NCBI RefSeq assembly: GCF_031085175.1
Contig: NZ_JAVHUY010000019.1
Coordinates: 1 to 64,000, forward strand
Source of the DNA: Phytohabitans maris
GTDB lineage: Bacteria; Actinomycetota; Actinomycetes; Mycobacteriales; Micromonosporaceae
Reading direction: 5' to 3'
Length of the DNA stretch: 64,000 nt
The position numbers were made by a program, and so were the translations under genes. The notes under the pieces are model-generated. The model was not told where the DNA came from and searched no databases. It saw only the letters and a program-made list of their open reading frames with translations. This document shows, in pieces, positions 3,392 through 52,119 of the stretch; within the stretch, counting starts at the first letter, position 1; every line of letters starts with the position of its first letter.

Positions 3392-4480
3392 GTGAGCCGG
3401 CACCGCGCGCCGGAGGGTGAAGACCAGACAAGCGTCATCCCCCGCGTCACCGATGACGGCCTGCCCCCGGCACCGCGTCCCAGCCCCCGGCCGCCCGCCC
3501 CCGCCGGCCCGCCGGTCGTGCCCGGCCCGCCCGCGGGTCCCGTGGCCGGGCGCCCGCCAGCAGACCTGCCGGGGCCACCACCCCGTGTGCCGCTCGACCG
3601 GGTGGACACGCCCACCGCGATCATCCCGGCCATCCCGGCGGACGCGACCGGGCTGCTCGGCGCCGTGCCACCGGCGCCGCCCAAGCCCGACCCGCCCGCC
3701 GGCGGTGCCGTGCCGCCCGTGCCCCCGCCGCGCCGCGGTGAGCGAGTGGTCAAGTTGCGGCCGGAGCAGACCGACGAGGGCTACAAGAGCGTCTACTCCG
3801 AGCTCACCCGCCCGACGGTCGGCTCGCGGATCCGCGCCGGCGTACGTGGCCTGGGCGAGCTCATGATCACGCTCGGCGTGGTCGTGCTGCTCTTCGCCGC
3901 GTACGAGGTGTGGGGCACCACGGCCATCATCGGCTCCCACCAAGACACCCTCGGTCAGCAGCTCGACCAGCAGTGGGACCAGCCGGATCCGGTCGTCGGG
4001 CCGACGCCGAGCGCCTCCTCCAACCCACTGCCCGGCAAGGCGATCGCCCGCCTGTACATCCCCAAGCTCGAAAAGCAGTGGGTCGTGGTCGAGGGCGTCA
4101 CACAAAAGGACATCCGGTACGCGCCGGGGCATTACCCCAGCAGCGCCGATCCCGGCAAGATCGGTAACTTCGCCGTCGCCGGGCACCGCAACCGGGCCAC
4201 GTTCTGGCGGCTGGACGAGCTCGACAACGGCGACGCGATCGTGGTGGAGACCAAGACCGAGTGGTTCGTCTACAAGGTGGTCCGCACCCGCATCGTCAAG
4301 CCCACGCAGGTCGAGGTCGTGGCTCCGGTGCCCGGCGAGCCGGGGGTCAAGCCGACCCAGGCCATGGTCACGCTCACCACGTGCAACCCTAAGTTGGACA
4401 ACTACCAGCGCCTGATCATCCATGGTGAGCTGGCCCGCAAGCAGGCCCGATCCGCCGGTCAGCCCGCGGAGCTGGGTTAA
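3392..4480 (+). CDS. Class E sortase
   Basis: A 362-residue protein. About 120 residues of proline-rich cytoplasmic tail precede a single transmembrane helix (about 152-172), followed by the sortase fold. The catalytic histidine is in [11 protein letters not shown] and the nucleophilic cysteine in [19 protein letters not shown], the TLxTC signature with a downstream YQRLIIHG arginine. Class E sortases cleave LAXTG-type sorting signals and attach proteins to the actinobacterial wall. The GTG at 3392 lies 7 bases after the DUF881 stop. No obvious LAXTG substrate was noticed in the window, although several secreted proteins have C-terminal hydrophobic ends. Confidence 0.93.
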
Positions 4481-15287: not shown

Positions 15288-15373
15288 GGGGAAGTGGCGG
15301 AATGGCAGACGCGCACGGTTCAGGTCCGTGTGCCCGAAAGGGCGTGGGGGTTCAACTCCCCCCTTCCCCACCA
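15288..15373 (+). tRNA. tRNA-Leu(CAG)
   Basis: An 86-base class II tRNA with CCA encoded. The acceptor stem GGGGAAG pairs with CTTCCCC, the anticodon stem CACGG/CCGTG encloses loop TTCAGGT (anticodon CAG), a long variable arm TGCCCGAAAGGGCG is present, and the T arm is GGGGG-TTCAACT-CCCCC. Confidence 0.97.
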
Positions 15374-23381: not shown

Positions 23382-24269
23382 TCAGGAGGTCGGCGTCGGC
23401 GACACGGTCGGGGCGAACGTGGGCTGCTCGGTCGGCGTCAGCGGGCTGGCGATCACCAGCGTGATCTCGGTGCCCTCGGGTACGACCTCCCCTTCCGCCG
23501 GATCCGTTTCGATCACGGTGTTCGGGGGTTCCTCCGCCGGCCGGTACACGAGGCGGTAGCTCAGGCCCAGCCGGTCGAGCTCGTCCCGCGCCTCCTCGTC
23601 GGTCAGCCCCACGAGCGGCGGCACCGGTACGCCGGCCGGCGCGGTCGTGGGTGGCGGCGCCGAGCTCGTGGTCGGCGCGGCGGAGGTGGCCGGGGCGGAG
23701 GTCGGCGCGAGGGTCGGCGAGGGCGTCGGGGTGGGCTCCACCTTGTTTGCCTCGTAGATCAGCCAGATGCCCGTGATCAGGCCGGCGACCAGCAGCAGCG
23801 CCACGATGCCGAGCACGATCGGCATCCACCACCTACCACCGCCGTCCTCGGGCGGTGGTGCCCATTCGGTGGGCGCCGGCCCGCGTACGGAGTCCGGTGG
23901 GGGCACGCCGGCCCGGCCGGACCAGGCGGCGGGCTCGGGCGGCACCTGCGCGGTCTCGGCCGGCATCCGCCGGGTCTCGTCGCCGGCCGCGGGCATCTGC
24001 CGGGTTTCGCCGCCCGTGGGCGGCATCTGCCGGGTCTCGCCGCCGGTTGGCGGGAGCTGGGCGGTCCGGTCGGGATCGGTGCGGGCTTCGTCGGGCTTTC
24101 CAGCCGCGGGGGCGCCGTCCGCCTCGTCCTCGTCCGCGAACGGATCGAACTCCCGGGTCTGATCCGGCTCGTCCCGCGGGTCGCCGGAGCCGGGAGCGGG
24201 GTCGGAGCCGGGAGCGGGGTCGGAGCCGGCACCGGGAGCGGGACCGTCCGGATCGCGGTCGTCGGCCAT
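23382..24269 (-). CDS. PASTA-domain membrane protein without kinase
   Basis: A 295-residue protein. The cytoplasmic N terminus (1-150) is acidic and proline-rich and contains repeated units PTGGETRQMP, PTGGETRQMP and AAGDETRRMP (about 70-105) plus DQTREFDPF. One transmembrane helix (about 151-174) is followed by a threonine/proline linker and a single PASTA domain (about 215-280) with VPPLVGLTDEEARDELDRLG. PASTA domains bind muropeptides or lipid II. The repeated threonines may be kinase targets. The ATG has a GGAGAGGAC site; the frame is open further upstream but antisense to the next gene. Confidence 0.88.
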   Translation of the reverse strand: MADDRDPDGPAPGAGSDPAPGSDPAPGSGDPRDEPDQTREFDPFADEDEADGAPAAGKPDEARTDPDRTAQLPPTGGETRQMPPTGGETRQMPAAGDETRRMPAETAQVPPEPAAWSGRAGVPPPDSVRGPAPTEWAPPPEDGGGRWWMPIVLGIVALLLVAGLITGIWLIYEANKVEPTPTPSPTLAPTSAPATSAAPTTSSAPPPTTAPAGVPVPPLVGLTDEEARDELDRLGLSYRLVYRPAEEPPNTVIETDPAEGEVVPEGTEITLVIASPLTPTEQPTFAPTVSPTPTS

Positions 24270-36935: not shown

Positions 36936-38198
36936 TCAGGCCGGGACCTGGCTCAGCAGCCCCATCGGGTCCACGCCCGCGACGTTGACCTTGCTGGTCT
37001 TGACGCCGCTGCCGAGGTCACCCGCGACCGGCAGGGAGGAGGCGCCACCGGCGGTGGGCAGGCCGCTGGTCAGCGTCCCGGTCAGGCCACCGACCAGAGG
37101 CAGGGCCTCCTTCTTGACCGACTTCGACTTGGCCGACTTCTTGTAGTAGCCGTCGTCCCCGCCGTCGCCGGGCTTGCCGTCGACGTCCTGGGCGGCGCCG
37201 TTGACGCAGGCACCGCTGACGCCCACACCGACGCCGAGCACGCCCACGCCGTTGCCGCAGGCGTTGATCGGCACCTGCACCGGCACGTAGACCTGGTTGC
37301 CGTTCAGGATCCCGTCGTTGTCACCCGACACCTGCGCGGTGTCCTCGGTACGCTTCGACTCCTTGTCGACGTCCTGCGCCGCACCGTTGAAGCAGGCACC
37401 GCTCAGGCCCGCGCCGACGCCGAGCACGCCCACGCCGTTGCCGCAGATGTTGATCGGCACCTGCACCGGCACGTAGATCTGGTTGCCGTTGAGGATGCCG
37501 TCGTTGTCGCTCGAGACCTGGGCAGTGTCCTCGGTGCGCTTCGACTCCTTGTCGACGTCGTGCGCCGCACCGTTGACGCAGGCGCCGCTGACGCCGACGC
37601 CGAGGCCCAGGACACCCACGCCGTTGCCGCAGATGTTGATCGGCACCTGCACCGGCACGTAGACCTGGTTGCCGTTCAGGATCCCGTCGTTGTCACCCGA
37701 CACCTGCGCGGTGTCCTCGGTACGCTTCGACTCCTTGTCGACGTCCTGCGCCGCACCGTTGGCGGCGATGCCGCTGATGCCGGCCCCGACACCGAGCACG
37801 CCCACGCCGTTACCGGCCACGTTCACCGGGATCTGGATCGGGACGTAGGCCTGGTTGCCGTTCGCGATGCCGTCGTTGCCCCAGCTGAACTGGGTGGTGT
37901 CCTCGGTGCGCGAGGCCTCCTTGTGCTTGCGGGAGGACTTGCTCCAGTGGTCCACGTCCTGGGCGGCGCCGTTGGAAGCGAGGCCGCTGATGCCGGCCCC
38001 GACACCGAGCACGCCCACGCCGTTACCGGCCACGTTCACCGGGATCTGGATCGGCGCGTAGGCCTGGTTGCCGTTGAGGATGCCGTCGTTGTCGAGCGAC
38101 ACCTGCGCGGTGTCGGCGTGGACGGCGGACGGCGCGAAGAGGAGCGCACCCGCGGCCAGCACACCAACGCTGAGCGTCTTACGAACCCAAGTCTTCAT
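36936..38198 (-). CDS. Secreted protein with five tandem chaplin-like repeats
   Basis: A 420-residue protein. Signal peptide 1-28 (cut after AVHA), then five units at 29-99, 100-161, 162-223, 224-285 and 286-347. Each reads like NDGILNGNQVYVPVQVPIN, then a CGNGVGVLGVGVGVSGAC core, then NGAAQDVD and a charged linker KESKRTE. The core resembles chaplins of streptomycetes (hydrophobic, GN-rich, two cysteines with 16 residues between: 190/207, 252/269, 314/331). Units 1 and 2 have alanine in place of the cysteines. The tail (about 348-420) is basic then glycine/leucine rich, without a sorting motif. It probably assembles into an amphipathic surface layer; that is inference. Confidence 0.82.
   Translation of the reverse strand: MKTWVRKTLSVGVLAAGALLFAPSAVHADTAQVSLDNDGILNGNQAYAPIQIPVNVAGNGVGVLGVGAGISGLASNGAAQDVDHWSKSSRKHKEASRTEDTTQFSWGNDGIANGNQAYVPIQIPVNVAGNGVGVLGVGAGISGIAANGAAQDVDKESKRTEDTAQVSGDNDGILNGNQVYVPVQVPINICGNGVGVLGLGVGVSGACVNGAAHDVDKESKRTEDTAQVSSDNDGILNGNQIYVPVQVPINICGNGVGVLGVGAGLSGACFNGAAQDVDKESKRTEDTAQVSGDNDGILNGNQVYVPVQVPINACGNGVGVLGVGVGVSGACVNGAAQDVDGKPGDGGDDGYYKKSAKSKSVKKEALPLVGGLTGTLTSGLPTAGGASSLPVAGDLGSGVKTSKVNVAGVDPMGLLSQVPA
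37200..38110 (-). repeat. Five tandem 186-bp coding repeats (first is 213 bp)
   Basis: The DNA encoding the chaplin-like units. The 127-bp stretches 37263-37389 and 37635-37761, offset by exactly two units (372 bp), are identical in every base, and units 1 and 2 share about 75 identical bases around 37783-37855 and 37987-38059. This indicates recent duplication or gene conversion. Confidence 0.9.
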
Positions 38199-38528
38199 GA
38201 TGAAGAATTGCCCTTCGATAATTGTCAGAAAATAGCGCTGCTATTCGGTTGTGATTTGTTTCGCTGCTTGTTGCGAGCGACCGTACGAACACGCTCGCTT
38301 TCCGAATTCGGGCGCGATGGAGCCACGGCTGTTCGGACCTTGATCCCACCTGTCGACTTGCGCCCAATTTCGGTGATCCGTCTACGGGAGATCCGCCGCC
38401 AGTCAGAGCGGTTCTGGGATTCTTCCCGTGCGTCGCCGCCTATCCGCGCCGCCGGTGAAGATGTACCGGTGGGCCGGATGGGGCTGGGTGTGCTTCCTTG
38501 CCCGGTCGTGGACGACCGGCGCGGGCAC
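38199..38528 (-). promoter_or_regulatory. Upstream region of the chaplin-like gene
   Basis: 330 bases without a gene. The part next to the start (38205-38290) is AT-rich for this genome, includes GAAGGG upstream of the ATG and probably the promoter (TATTTT on the minus strand near 38232). Nothing further is recognised toward 38528. Confidence 0.4.
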
Positions 38529-39653
38529 TCAGTCAGGTGAGACGGTCGGGGTCTCGGCCTCAAGCCGCAGGACCGCGACGTCGGTCGTGACCGGCAGTCG
38601 GTGGAACGCCACCGTGCTCTCCACGACCGAGGAGGTAACGACGGCGAACCCGCCACCCTCCAGGTGGGAGCCCGGCCCTCCGGCCGGGATCCCGGCACCC
38701 GCCCCGAGGAACGCCCGAAGGGGCGCGGGGTAGTGCCGGTCGGGCAGGTTTCCGGTGCCCGACCGCTCGTCCGGTGATCCGGCCGAGCGCAGCTCCGTGC
38801 CGGCATAGCGCCGGTCGCCGGAGAGGGAAACGGTGCTGACCCCGGTGAGGCCCACCGTCCGTGCGCCGAGCGCGGCAGCCGTGCCGGACCGGACCGGCTT
38901 CGCCTCGGCTCCGGAGGCCGGTGTGGTCCCCGGGATCAGGTCATGACCCCGCTGCCCCGCCAGGTCGCCACCGAGGGCCGCGCGCGTGACCGAGCCCAGC
39001 GCCGTGGTGACCGGCTGCGCCGCGGTGAGCAGCACGCCGGTGACCGGACGCAGGACCCCGTCCAGCGGGGCGACCACCGGGTCGACCGCTCGGGTCAGCG
39101 GAGTGAGCAGGCCCGTCGGCCCAGCCAGCACACCGGAAAGGCCCAGTGGCGTGGTCAGGCCGCGGACGGTACCGAGGAGGACTCCATCGCTGGAACCCGC
39201 TCGGTCCCGCACGGCGCGCGACTGCGCGGCGGGCGCCTGGGCACCCACCGGCTCGTCAGCCGCCACGCGGGTGGCGCCGACCCGGTCACCGACCGGCCGG
39301 GCGGCCGGCTGCGAGGTAACCGGGATCGAGGACGCGGCCGTGGCGCTGGGCAGCACGACCGTGCTCGCCCGCCCCACGGATAGGAGGTCGGTCGCGGCAA
39401 GCGTGGCATCCAGCGTGTCCGCCAGCGGCGAAAGCACTGTGGACTCACCGGAGCCGTCGACCAGCGAAACCACCGACAGGTCGGTGGGCGCGTCCTCGGT
39501 GGGCAGGGCGGCCTCCGCGGCGTGTGCCGAGGCGGCGGACAGGAGCCAGGCCGCTCCCGCCAGACCACCGACGGCCAGCACCCGCAGGCCGATGCGGACA
39601 TGCGCCGGTCGCGTCGCCGCGCGCGGTGAGCGCTCGACTCCCGACCCGGTCAT
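38529..39653 (-). CDS. Secreted hypothetical protein beside the chaplin-like gene
   Basis: A 374-residue protein with a signal peptide (about 1-46, ending SAHAAEA). The mature part is alanine/threonine/leucine rich with a run of repeated hydrophobic-proline units (about 160-225: LTTPLGLSGVLAGPTGLL, PLTRAVDPVVAPLDGVLRPV) and a C-terminal segment around RHYPAPLRAFLGAGAGIPAG. No enzymatic motif or anchor. It lies directly upstream of, and in the same direction as, the chaplin-like gene; a role in the same surface structure is a guess. Confidence 0.7.
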   Translation of the reverse strand: MTGSGVERSPRAATRPAHVRIGLRVLAVGGLAGAAWLLSAASAHAAEAALPTEDAPTDLSVVSLVDGSGESTVLSPLADTLDATLAATDLLSVGRASTVVLPSATAASSIPVTSQPAARPVGDRVGATRVAADEPVGAQAPAAQSRAVRDRAGSSDGVLLGTVRGLTTPLGLSGVLAGPTGLLTPLTRAVDPVVAPLDGVLRPVTGVLLTAAQPVTTALGSVTRAALGGDLAGQRGHDLIPGTTPASGAEAKPVRSGTAAALGARTVGLTGVSTVSLSGDRRYAGTELRSAGSPDERSGTGNLPDRHYPAPLRAFLGAGAGIPAGGPGSHLEGGGFAVVTSSVVESTVAFHRLPVTTDVAVLRLEAETPTVSPD

Positions 39654-51766: not shown

Positions 51767-51839
51767 TGGAGCCGAGGGGACTCGAACCCCTAACCCCTGC
51801 CTTGCAAAGGCAGTGCTCTGCCAGTTGAGCTACGGCCCC
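51767..51839 (-). tRNA. tRNA-Ala(TGC)
   Basis: A 73-base tRNA; acceptor GGGGCCG pairs with CGGCTCC allowing a wobble, anticodon stem CTGCC/GGCAG around TTTGCAA gives TGC, T arm AGGGGTTCGAGTCCCCT. CCA is not encoded. Confidence 0.96.
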
Positions 51840-52045: not shown

Positions 52046-52119
52046 TGGGGCTAGATGGAATCGAACCATCGACCTCAGAGTTATCAGCTCTGCGCTCTAA
52101 CCGACTGAGCTATAGCCCC
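52046..52119 (-). tRNA. tRNA-Ile(GAT)
   Basis: A 74-base tRNA with CCA encoded next to it (52043-52045). Acceptor GGGGCTA/TAGCCCC, anticodon stem AGAGC...GCTCT-type pairing around CTGATAA (anticodon GAT), T arm GATGGTTCGATTCCATC. Confidence 0.97.

Follow-up and report, generated by a model that had tools for sequence, protein, structure and literature searches.

The analysis of a 64,000-nt stretch of the Phytohabitans maris genome (hereafter the window) reveals one gene that encodes five chaplin domains (Pfam PF03777) in a single chain. By sequence, the domains are joined by short charged linkers and preceded by a conserved signal sequence, the C-terminus carries no anchor, the gene lies at an orthologous locus, and a leader element is linked to it. 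The explanation that we favor, with moderate confidence, is that the product is exported but left unanchored, an array of pre-linked chaplin units that would build a hydrophobic layer alone and under its own structured leader; in this explanation it is assembly, surface activity and regulation that we infer. The parts of the gene, listed from its start to its end, are the following:

36936..38198 (-), five-unit chaplin gene, 420 aa, from the open reading frame (ORF) and the PF03777 profile
38115..38198 (-), signal sequence MKTWVRKTLSVGVLAAGALLFAPSAVHA, residues 1-28, with presumed cleavage before DTAQVS, by inspection
37902..38114 (-), unit 1 and linker, residues 29-99, without Cys, from PF03777 and sequence
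37716..37901 (-), unit 2 and linker, residues 100-161, without Cys, from PF03777 and sequence
37530..37715 (-), unit 3 and linker, residues 162-223, with Cys190/Cys207, from PF03777 and sequence
37344..37529 (-), unit 4 and linker, residues 224-285, with Cys252/Cys269, from PF03777 and sequence
37164..37343 (-), unit 5, residues 286-345, with Cys314/Cys331, from PF03777 and sequence
36939..37163 (-), C-terminal tail, residues 346-420, pLDDT below 50 throughout, without sortase signal or membrane segment

An initial annotation of the same DNA had described five tandem chaplin-like units separated by charged linkers at 36936-38198, and both parts of this description are borne out. In the ORF list, the reading frame on the reverse strand has exactly these ends, and the 420-aa protein runs from the signal sequence through five chaplin units to a 75-residue tail, with units starting at residues 29, 100, 162, 224 and 286 (steps of 71, 62, 62 and 62). 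Tandem Repeats Finder independently called the array (186-bp period, 3.8 copies, 86% matches, score 1029), and PF03777 recognizes each unit. The unit core reads GNQ-xYxPxQxPxNx-(C/A)-GNGVGVLG and is devoid of Lys and Arg, while the four linkers contain three to five Lys/Arg and three Asp/Glu residues each. The N-terminus has, by inspection, the features of a secretion signal, that is, a Lys/Arg start, a hydrophobic core and AVHA ahead of unit 1; its MKTWVRKTLS start is invariant in an alignment of 19 orthologues, and the structural model places a helix at residues 4-21. Elsewhere in the window, short tandem repeats of 18, 21, 24 and 30 bp cluster at 23929-24243, perhaps within a low-complexity protein gene.

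The assignment to the chaplin family was to fall, according to the initial annotation, if no profile match was found. The PF03777 (ChpA-C) profile matches the whole protein with an E value of 2.3e-41 (139.9 bits against a cut-off of 21, in five stretches) and also each unit taken singly, at 42.8, 40.3, 38.6, 32.7 and 29.5 bits, all above the 21-bit cut-off. A profile search of the genome found no second PF03777 gene. No NCBIfam model scored above its cut-off with the chaplin protein, and the best PDB sequences (E 0.69 and 0.84) were both unrelated to it. In the available part of PMC13251363, the Streptomyces-type chaplin domain is described as carrying three GN motifs. In the window protein, GN occurs in NGNQ and in CGNG/AGNG, and the third position reads SGAC, SGLA or SGIA (by eye), so that the three-GN pattern is incomplete.

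The gene is widespread but not universal among relatives. Within the genus, an ORF with exactly five PF03777 matches is present in five of the six genomes, that of the window included. No PF03777 gene was found in the sixth (G001, 89% complete): at its locus (L227) about 120 nt lie between the biotin carboxylase gene and the carboxylase gene after it, and both the chaplin gene and the neighboring secreted-protein gene are absent, suggesting that the chaplin gene is dispensable. In 32 related loci, which were taken from a genome scan and whose units were counted with a unit profile built in this analysis, the chaplin gene always has a carboxylase gene within 3 kb and, in 31 cases, a biotin carboxylase gene on its other side. 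These shared neighbors point to a single orthologous locus shared between genera, among them Actinoplanes, Paractinoplanes, Couchioplanes, Catenuloplanes, Longispora and Spirilliplanes. All 19 aligned orthologues match PF03777. The gene adjoining the chaplin gene at 38529-39653 (-) encodes a 374-aa protein with a signal-like start and without a Pfam match, and some similarity to it, often short, is seen in 27 of the 32 related loci.

As for unit number, the custom profile found a five-unit ORF in 27 of the 32 related loci, four units in one and three units in four. Among 300 Micromonosporaceae genomes, PF03777 was found in 144, a lower bound, and not in the other 156, since at least two of the latter (G033 and G041) have such a gene that escaped the Pfam profile. 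The de-duplicated set of 106 Micromonosporaceae ORFs, some of them maybe cut at the end of the fetched stretch, comprises 50 with five units, 26 with four, 22 with three, five with one and three with six. A class-wide survey of 30 loci, biased toward Streptomyces-type genes since it took the best-scoring matches, yielded 28 one-unit and 20 two-unit ORFs, where the labels Streptomyces-type (f21) and, below, Micromonospora-like (g12) are inferred from domain scores, sorting motifs and gene content. Chaplin ORFs of four to eight units are also present in other actinobacterial families (f10, f19 and f39; 12 chosen genomes), indicating that many units per chain are not unique to this protein. The previous statement that chaplins normally occur as one or two domains therefore applies to the Streptomyces-type loci sampled but not to these other families. 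Likewise, a look at unit-number variation in relatives shows that the five-unit design is kept across genera, although a multi-unit design is no peculiarity of the window protein.

The Cys pair with 16 residues between its members, previously noted in units 3-5, is confirmed there, and Ala stands, as noted, at all four equivalent positions of units 1-2: Cys is found only at 190/207, 252/269 and 314/331, that is, in three of the five units of the 420-aa protein. Across the family set of 443 units, 256 have the pair, 168 have none and 19 have one Cys; in the printed patterns these 19 are all last units, and in the printed examples an extra Cys stands just before the unit. The patterns are clade-specific, --C-C being found in 28 distinct ORFs and C-CC in 11. 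Since four congeners have Cys pairs in all five units (G002 and G003 by eye), the Cys-less units 1 and 2 appear, by sequence, peculiar to the window species among the genus genomes seen. The cores of these two units are 92% identical to each other at the DNA level, and only 80 and 85% identical to their counterparts in P. suffuscus. Both have lost the Cys pair and both have changed AVIG/AAIG to VLG, which conversion between them would explain. Identity among the four closest genomes is 0.86-0.94 for units at the same position and 0.82-0.85 for units at different positions; in comparison with the most distant genome of the genus (G004), the two kinds of identity differ by only 0.01-0.04.

Such data could be read as ordinary repeat expansion, with a neutral number of units and an array whose function is that of a single chaplin domain. 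The range of one to six units in Micromonosporaceae, the homogenization of units 1 and 2 in the window protein and the barely greater likeness of same-position units toward G004 all agree with that reading. We nevertheless consider it very unlikely, given the retention of five units in 27 of the 32 related loci, the positional identity of units among the four closest genomes (0.86-0.94 against 0.82-0.85) and the recurrence of the --C-C code in 28 distinct ORFs.

A conserved array could also be a precursor. The 420-aa protein contains the linker KESKRTE three times, and its internal units each open with DTxQxS, as the chain does after the signal sequence. Both features would suit a polyprotein whose linkers are cut by a secreted protease, for example after KESKR, to free five short-chaplin-like peptides, in the way that the fungal repellent precursor Rep1 is processed as a polyprotein; ES is found in 97 of the 121 linkers of the 32 related loci. 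However, dibasic pairs, as for Kex2-type cutting, are present in only 47 of these 121 linkers, duplication of the mature part would produce identical restarts without any cutting, and the architecture of the whole chain is conserved in 27 of the 32 loci. Processing into peptides is, in our judgment, unlikely, and we retain the linked array as the preferred form of the protein.

The absence of an anchor sets this array apart. A sortase signal in the strict sense (L[AP]x[TA]G, a hydrophobic stretch and a basic end) was present in none of 63 Micromonosporaceae ORFs, a set with a few duplicates in which the same strain was entered twice, vs. 19 of the 20 two-unit survey ORFs. A laxer sortase test and a search for a C-terminal membrane segment with a basic end gave none of 106 vs. 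all 20. The multi-unit ORFs of the other families are different in this respect: a membrane segment with a basic end is found in each of the 11 that end inside the fetched stretch (those of one genome, G665, ran off it), and an LPxTG/LAxTG motif in eight. As judged from sequence, the mark of Micromonosporaceae chaplins thus appears to be many units without an anchor. The window genome itself has eight sortase-domain matches, one of which (PF04203, E 7.5e-33) lies at 4052-4432 (+) in a 383-aa open frame of the window.

The model predicted from 19 orthologues has six or seven short strands per unit (mean pLDDT 54, pTM 0.52), with pLDDT values of 48-82 in 10-residue blocks of the units and below 50 in linkers and tail; a single unit, modeled from 47 aligned units, does not fold (pLDDT 43, pTM 0.13). 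Structure predictors tend to stack tandem repeats. The model thus points, at low confidence, to repeated short strands and no compact domain. In the 11 residues after each GNQ, the hydrophobic moment at 170 degrees is 0.58-0.65, a value reached by 0.02-0.2% of shuffles. The initial annotation had held that a compact fold without amphipathic strands would speak against its proposal; the low-confidence model contains no compact fold, and the hydrophobic moment is that of amphipathic strands. A Foldseek search against solved structures gave a best E value of 0.19, with none of 49 matches at or below 0.001, and placed CsgA and FapC at ranks 3, 4 and 10 (E 0.46-1.4). Curli CsgA and FapC carry several imperfect repeats per chain with conserved Asn/Gln/Gly positions. 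Their likeness to the chaplin array is one of analogy only (E 0.46 and 0.53, probability 0.01), with no sequence relation seen.

Our findings allow us to propose a model of how the array would work. After Sec export, the chain would remain extracellular and unanchored, and its units of about 45 residues would each form short amphipathic strands. Five linked units would provide their own high local concentration, which may lead to cross-beta (amyloid-type) nucleation without partner chaplins; the charged linkers would space the units and keep the chain soluble until it meets an interface, and intra-unit disulphides in some of the units may tune the readiness for assembly. By analogy, five linked units could be nucleus and building block at once, making short chaplins and a wall anchor dispensable. 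The assembled chain would then coat hyphae, spores or sporangia and make their surface water-repellent. In this regard, the earlier suggestion of a pre-multimerised polymer fits the conserved five-unit design, the lack of an anchor and the single PF03777 gene found, although the design is shared with other proteins.

The available parts of the literature on Streptomyces are in line with several of these steps. Short chaplins are surface-active and form cross-beta amyloid fibers, as ChpE does without cysteines; cysteines are not needed for chaplin fibers in vitro, and disulphides may aid nucleation (PMC3079736). Two cysteines per domain are typical of Streptomyces-type chaplins, but exceptions are known: like units 1-2, ChpE lacks both cysteines (PMC3079736, PMC7766987), and so does the C-terminal domain of ChpB (PMC13251363).

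In a different role, the protein would not form a hydrophobic coat but would serve, as an adhesin or a component of a matrix, to attach the cells to surfaces or plant roots. Several Micromonosporaceae form little aerial mycelium, which may be counted in its favor. Furthermore, some chaplins contribute to attachment, which has been proposed to come before aerial growth (PMC4255298, available in part). Nothing specific points to adhesion in the window protein, however, whose Pfam matches at E values up to 1 include no adhesin domain, and we regard this role as improbable compared with that of a coat.

Upstream of the gene lie two conserved elements:

38307..38366 (-), leader hairpin (models R1/R2), GGCGC/GCGCC stem, conserved 5' bulge A-N-GUCGAC-A and covarying inner stem
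38390..38420 (-), second conserved hairpin-like inverted repeat, AACCGCT...GGCGGCGGATC, upstream of the leader, with weaker support, which may be a terminator, an operator or a piece of the leader; in Actinoplanes this element reads CCGCTTG-CGAA-CAAGCGG

The leader hairpin spans about 60 nt and lies 108 nt upstream of the chaplin ATG, and a leader-like pattern is present in the upstream regions of 26 of the 32 related loci. In the whole genome, covariance model R1 finds one strong site, before the chaplin gene (E 1.7e-9; next 0.22), and in 101 family genomes it finds one site in each of 22, 20 of them before a multi-chaplin gene. The refined model R2 gives 91 matches in 87 of 300 family genomes. 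Inspection of the DNA of all 91 places 82 of them, in 81 genomes, directly upstream of a chaplin ORF, at a leader-to-ATG distance of 43-109 nt in the 79 measurable cases. Five of the other nine look like chance (E 0.0019 or worse). The remaining four (three in G173, one in G235) precede other secreted proteins with a similar signal sequence (KKTWVRKTLS, KKSWVRNTLS, KKMWVRKALS), and the proteins concerned (L200, L202 and L203 of G173, L213 of G235) comprise a decayed-looking chaplin (L200, by eye) and Gly/Pro-, Pro/Val- and His-rich chains. At these sites, leader and signal occur together as if they were a movable cassette.

In an alignment of 31 leaders, each from upstream of a chaplin gene, standard pairs make up 98.7% of the 458 pair cells (404 Watson-Crick and 48 G-U, as against 6 other), and seven of the 16 pairs show changes on both sides. 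None of 500 shuffles, which ignore relatedness, reached any of five covariation measures on this alignment, itself fitted to the structure, and slid structures leave only 25-43% paired. The 5' bulge A-N-GUCGAC-A is nearly invariant, while the apical stems vary in length and sequence and mostly remain paired. In the first alignment, of 25 upstream regions, the covariation term was almost nil and three of 19 pairs had changed on both sides. As chaplin upstream regions were the source of the first leader model, co-occurrence in close relatives reflects in part common descent; the stronger evidence is that of distant genera and covariation.

That the conserved element acts as DNA, as an operator or part of a promoter, and not through RNA structure is a less probable reading, though one that deserves consideration. 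The predicted fold of the 222-nt region of the window is little more stable than those of shuffles (z -1.29; 23 of 200 did equally well), an unremarkable energy, and a loose AAYYGAATA-like pattern downstream of the leader in 28 of 34 upstream regions could be part of a promoter. Yet the 48 G-U cells among 458, together with one pair that is U-G in 22 of 30 sequences, fit RNA better than a DNA palindrome, and pairing is mostly preserved in apical stems of differing length and sequence. A BldN-type promoter was discarded, the pattern GTAAC-N15-18-CGT having no match in 34 upstream regions, and a scan of 38150-38600 for sigma-70 promoters and terminators found none.

The codons of the gene start add to the case for the nucleic acid. 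Codons 2-20 of the signal sequence (38139-38195, -) are nearly identical across genera, with the rare ACT and GTT kept. Among 76 distinct genes with the signal sequence, picked by their KTW start and thus perhaps including a few non-chaplins, all 74 valines at codon 5 are encoded by GTT, as against 5.6% GTT in the rest of the genes, and codon 3 is ACT in 47 of the 76, as against 0.9% elsewhere in those genes. The first codons of 102 other ORFs from the same loci (at least 250 codons, GC3 of at least 0.85, read from the first ATG) include GTT in three of 105 valines and ACT in one of 91 threonines. When compared with these controls, the retention of rare codons suggests that selection at the nucleic-acid level extends into the coding region. 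Leader hairpin and conserved early codons would together control the amount of protein made, probably at the mRNA level, with the leader setting the level or the time of synthesis.

We regard the leader as a candidate new RNA element. Rfam 15 contains no match to it; at the gathering level, three tRNAs only were found (12 sources), and each of two leader regions searched against Rfam had a single match at chance level (E 3.3 and 2.1). A known riboswitch was rejected, the leader being without an Rfam match. The tRNA genes of the window lie at 15288-15370 (+), 51767-51839 (-) and 52046-52119 (-). Matches to the leader in the 30 class-survey chaplin loci had E values of only 2.1 and 3.7, three further loci gave one match at E 0.16 (L058), and no leader was found in 12 other-family chaplin loci (one from f3) or in four four-unit Micromonospora-like loci. 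In the class search, 18 other genomes of 296 matched at E 0.003-0.05, about the number expected by chance at that limit.

With respect to known systems, the closest comparison is with the long chaplins ChpA-C of Streptomyces coelicolor, which are likewise secreted with more than one chaplin domain per chain. Each of ChpA-C combines two domains with a C-terminal sortase signal, whereas the Micromonosporaceae proteins have mostly three to six units (five of 106 ORFs have one) and no such signal; the long chaplins have been viewed as scaffolds bound to the wall (PMC7766987, available in part). The short chaplins ChpD-H have the same kind of amphipathic core but one domain each, encoded by several genes, instead of five domains in one chain. 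The multi-unit chaplins of other families (f10, f19, f39) are similar in having four to eight units per ORF and differ in their anchored C-terminus and in that no leader was found in the loci searched.

The chaplin domain itself is already known, and in the partly available literature that was searched chaplins have one or two domains. That search, which covered few subscription papers, returned nothing on chaplins of three or more domains, nor on a leader RNA of chaplin genes. The surface hydrophobicity of Actinoplanes missouriensis, a species in which gene deletions can be made, has been ascribed to the sortase-anchored CwpA/B, which are without chaplin domains, and in the available part of the same paper we found no discussion of the multi-chaplin genes of related Actinoplanes (PMC13251363). 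In S. venezuelae, chaplin and rodlin transcripts are up in RNase III and RNase J mutants and are counted with the indirect BldD regulon (PMC12096830, available in part).

We tentatively extend the model to a broader and more doubtful proposal, in which one locus would replace the Streptomyces chaplin set through an unanchored multi-domain chaplin. The leader would be a cis-regulatory RNA dedicated to chaplins, whose GUCGAC bulge could be recognized by a protein or a ligand when surface growth begins, and leader plus signal would form a movable cassette that in some relatives stands before other repeat-built surface proteins.

Chaplin biology is based on Streptomyces, in which the work is divided among several proteins of one or two domains. 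In Micromonosporaceae, which are filamentous and in many cases form sporangia, up to six chaplin domains are brought together in one unanchored chain. A leader specific to chaplins, if true, would be the first case of an RNA element associated with a hydrophobic coat in bacteria, as far as the literature searched shows. As this is the only PF03777 gene found in the window genome, the coat would be genetically simple, and the whole chaplin function of P. maris could be tested by a single deletion.
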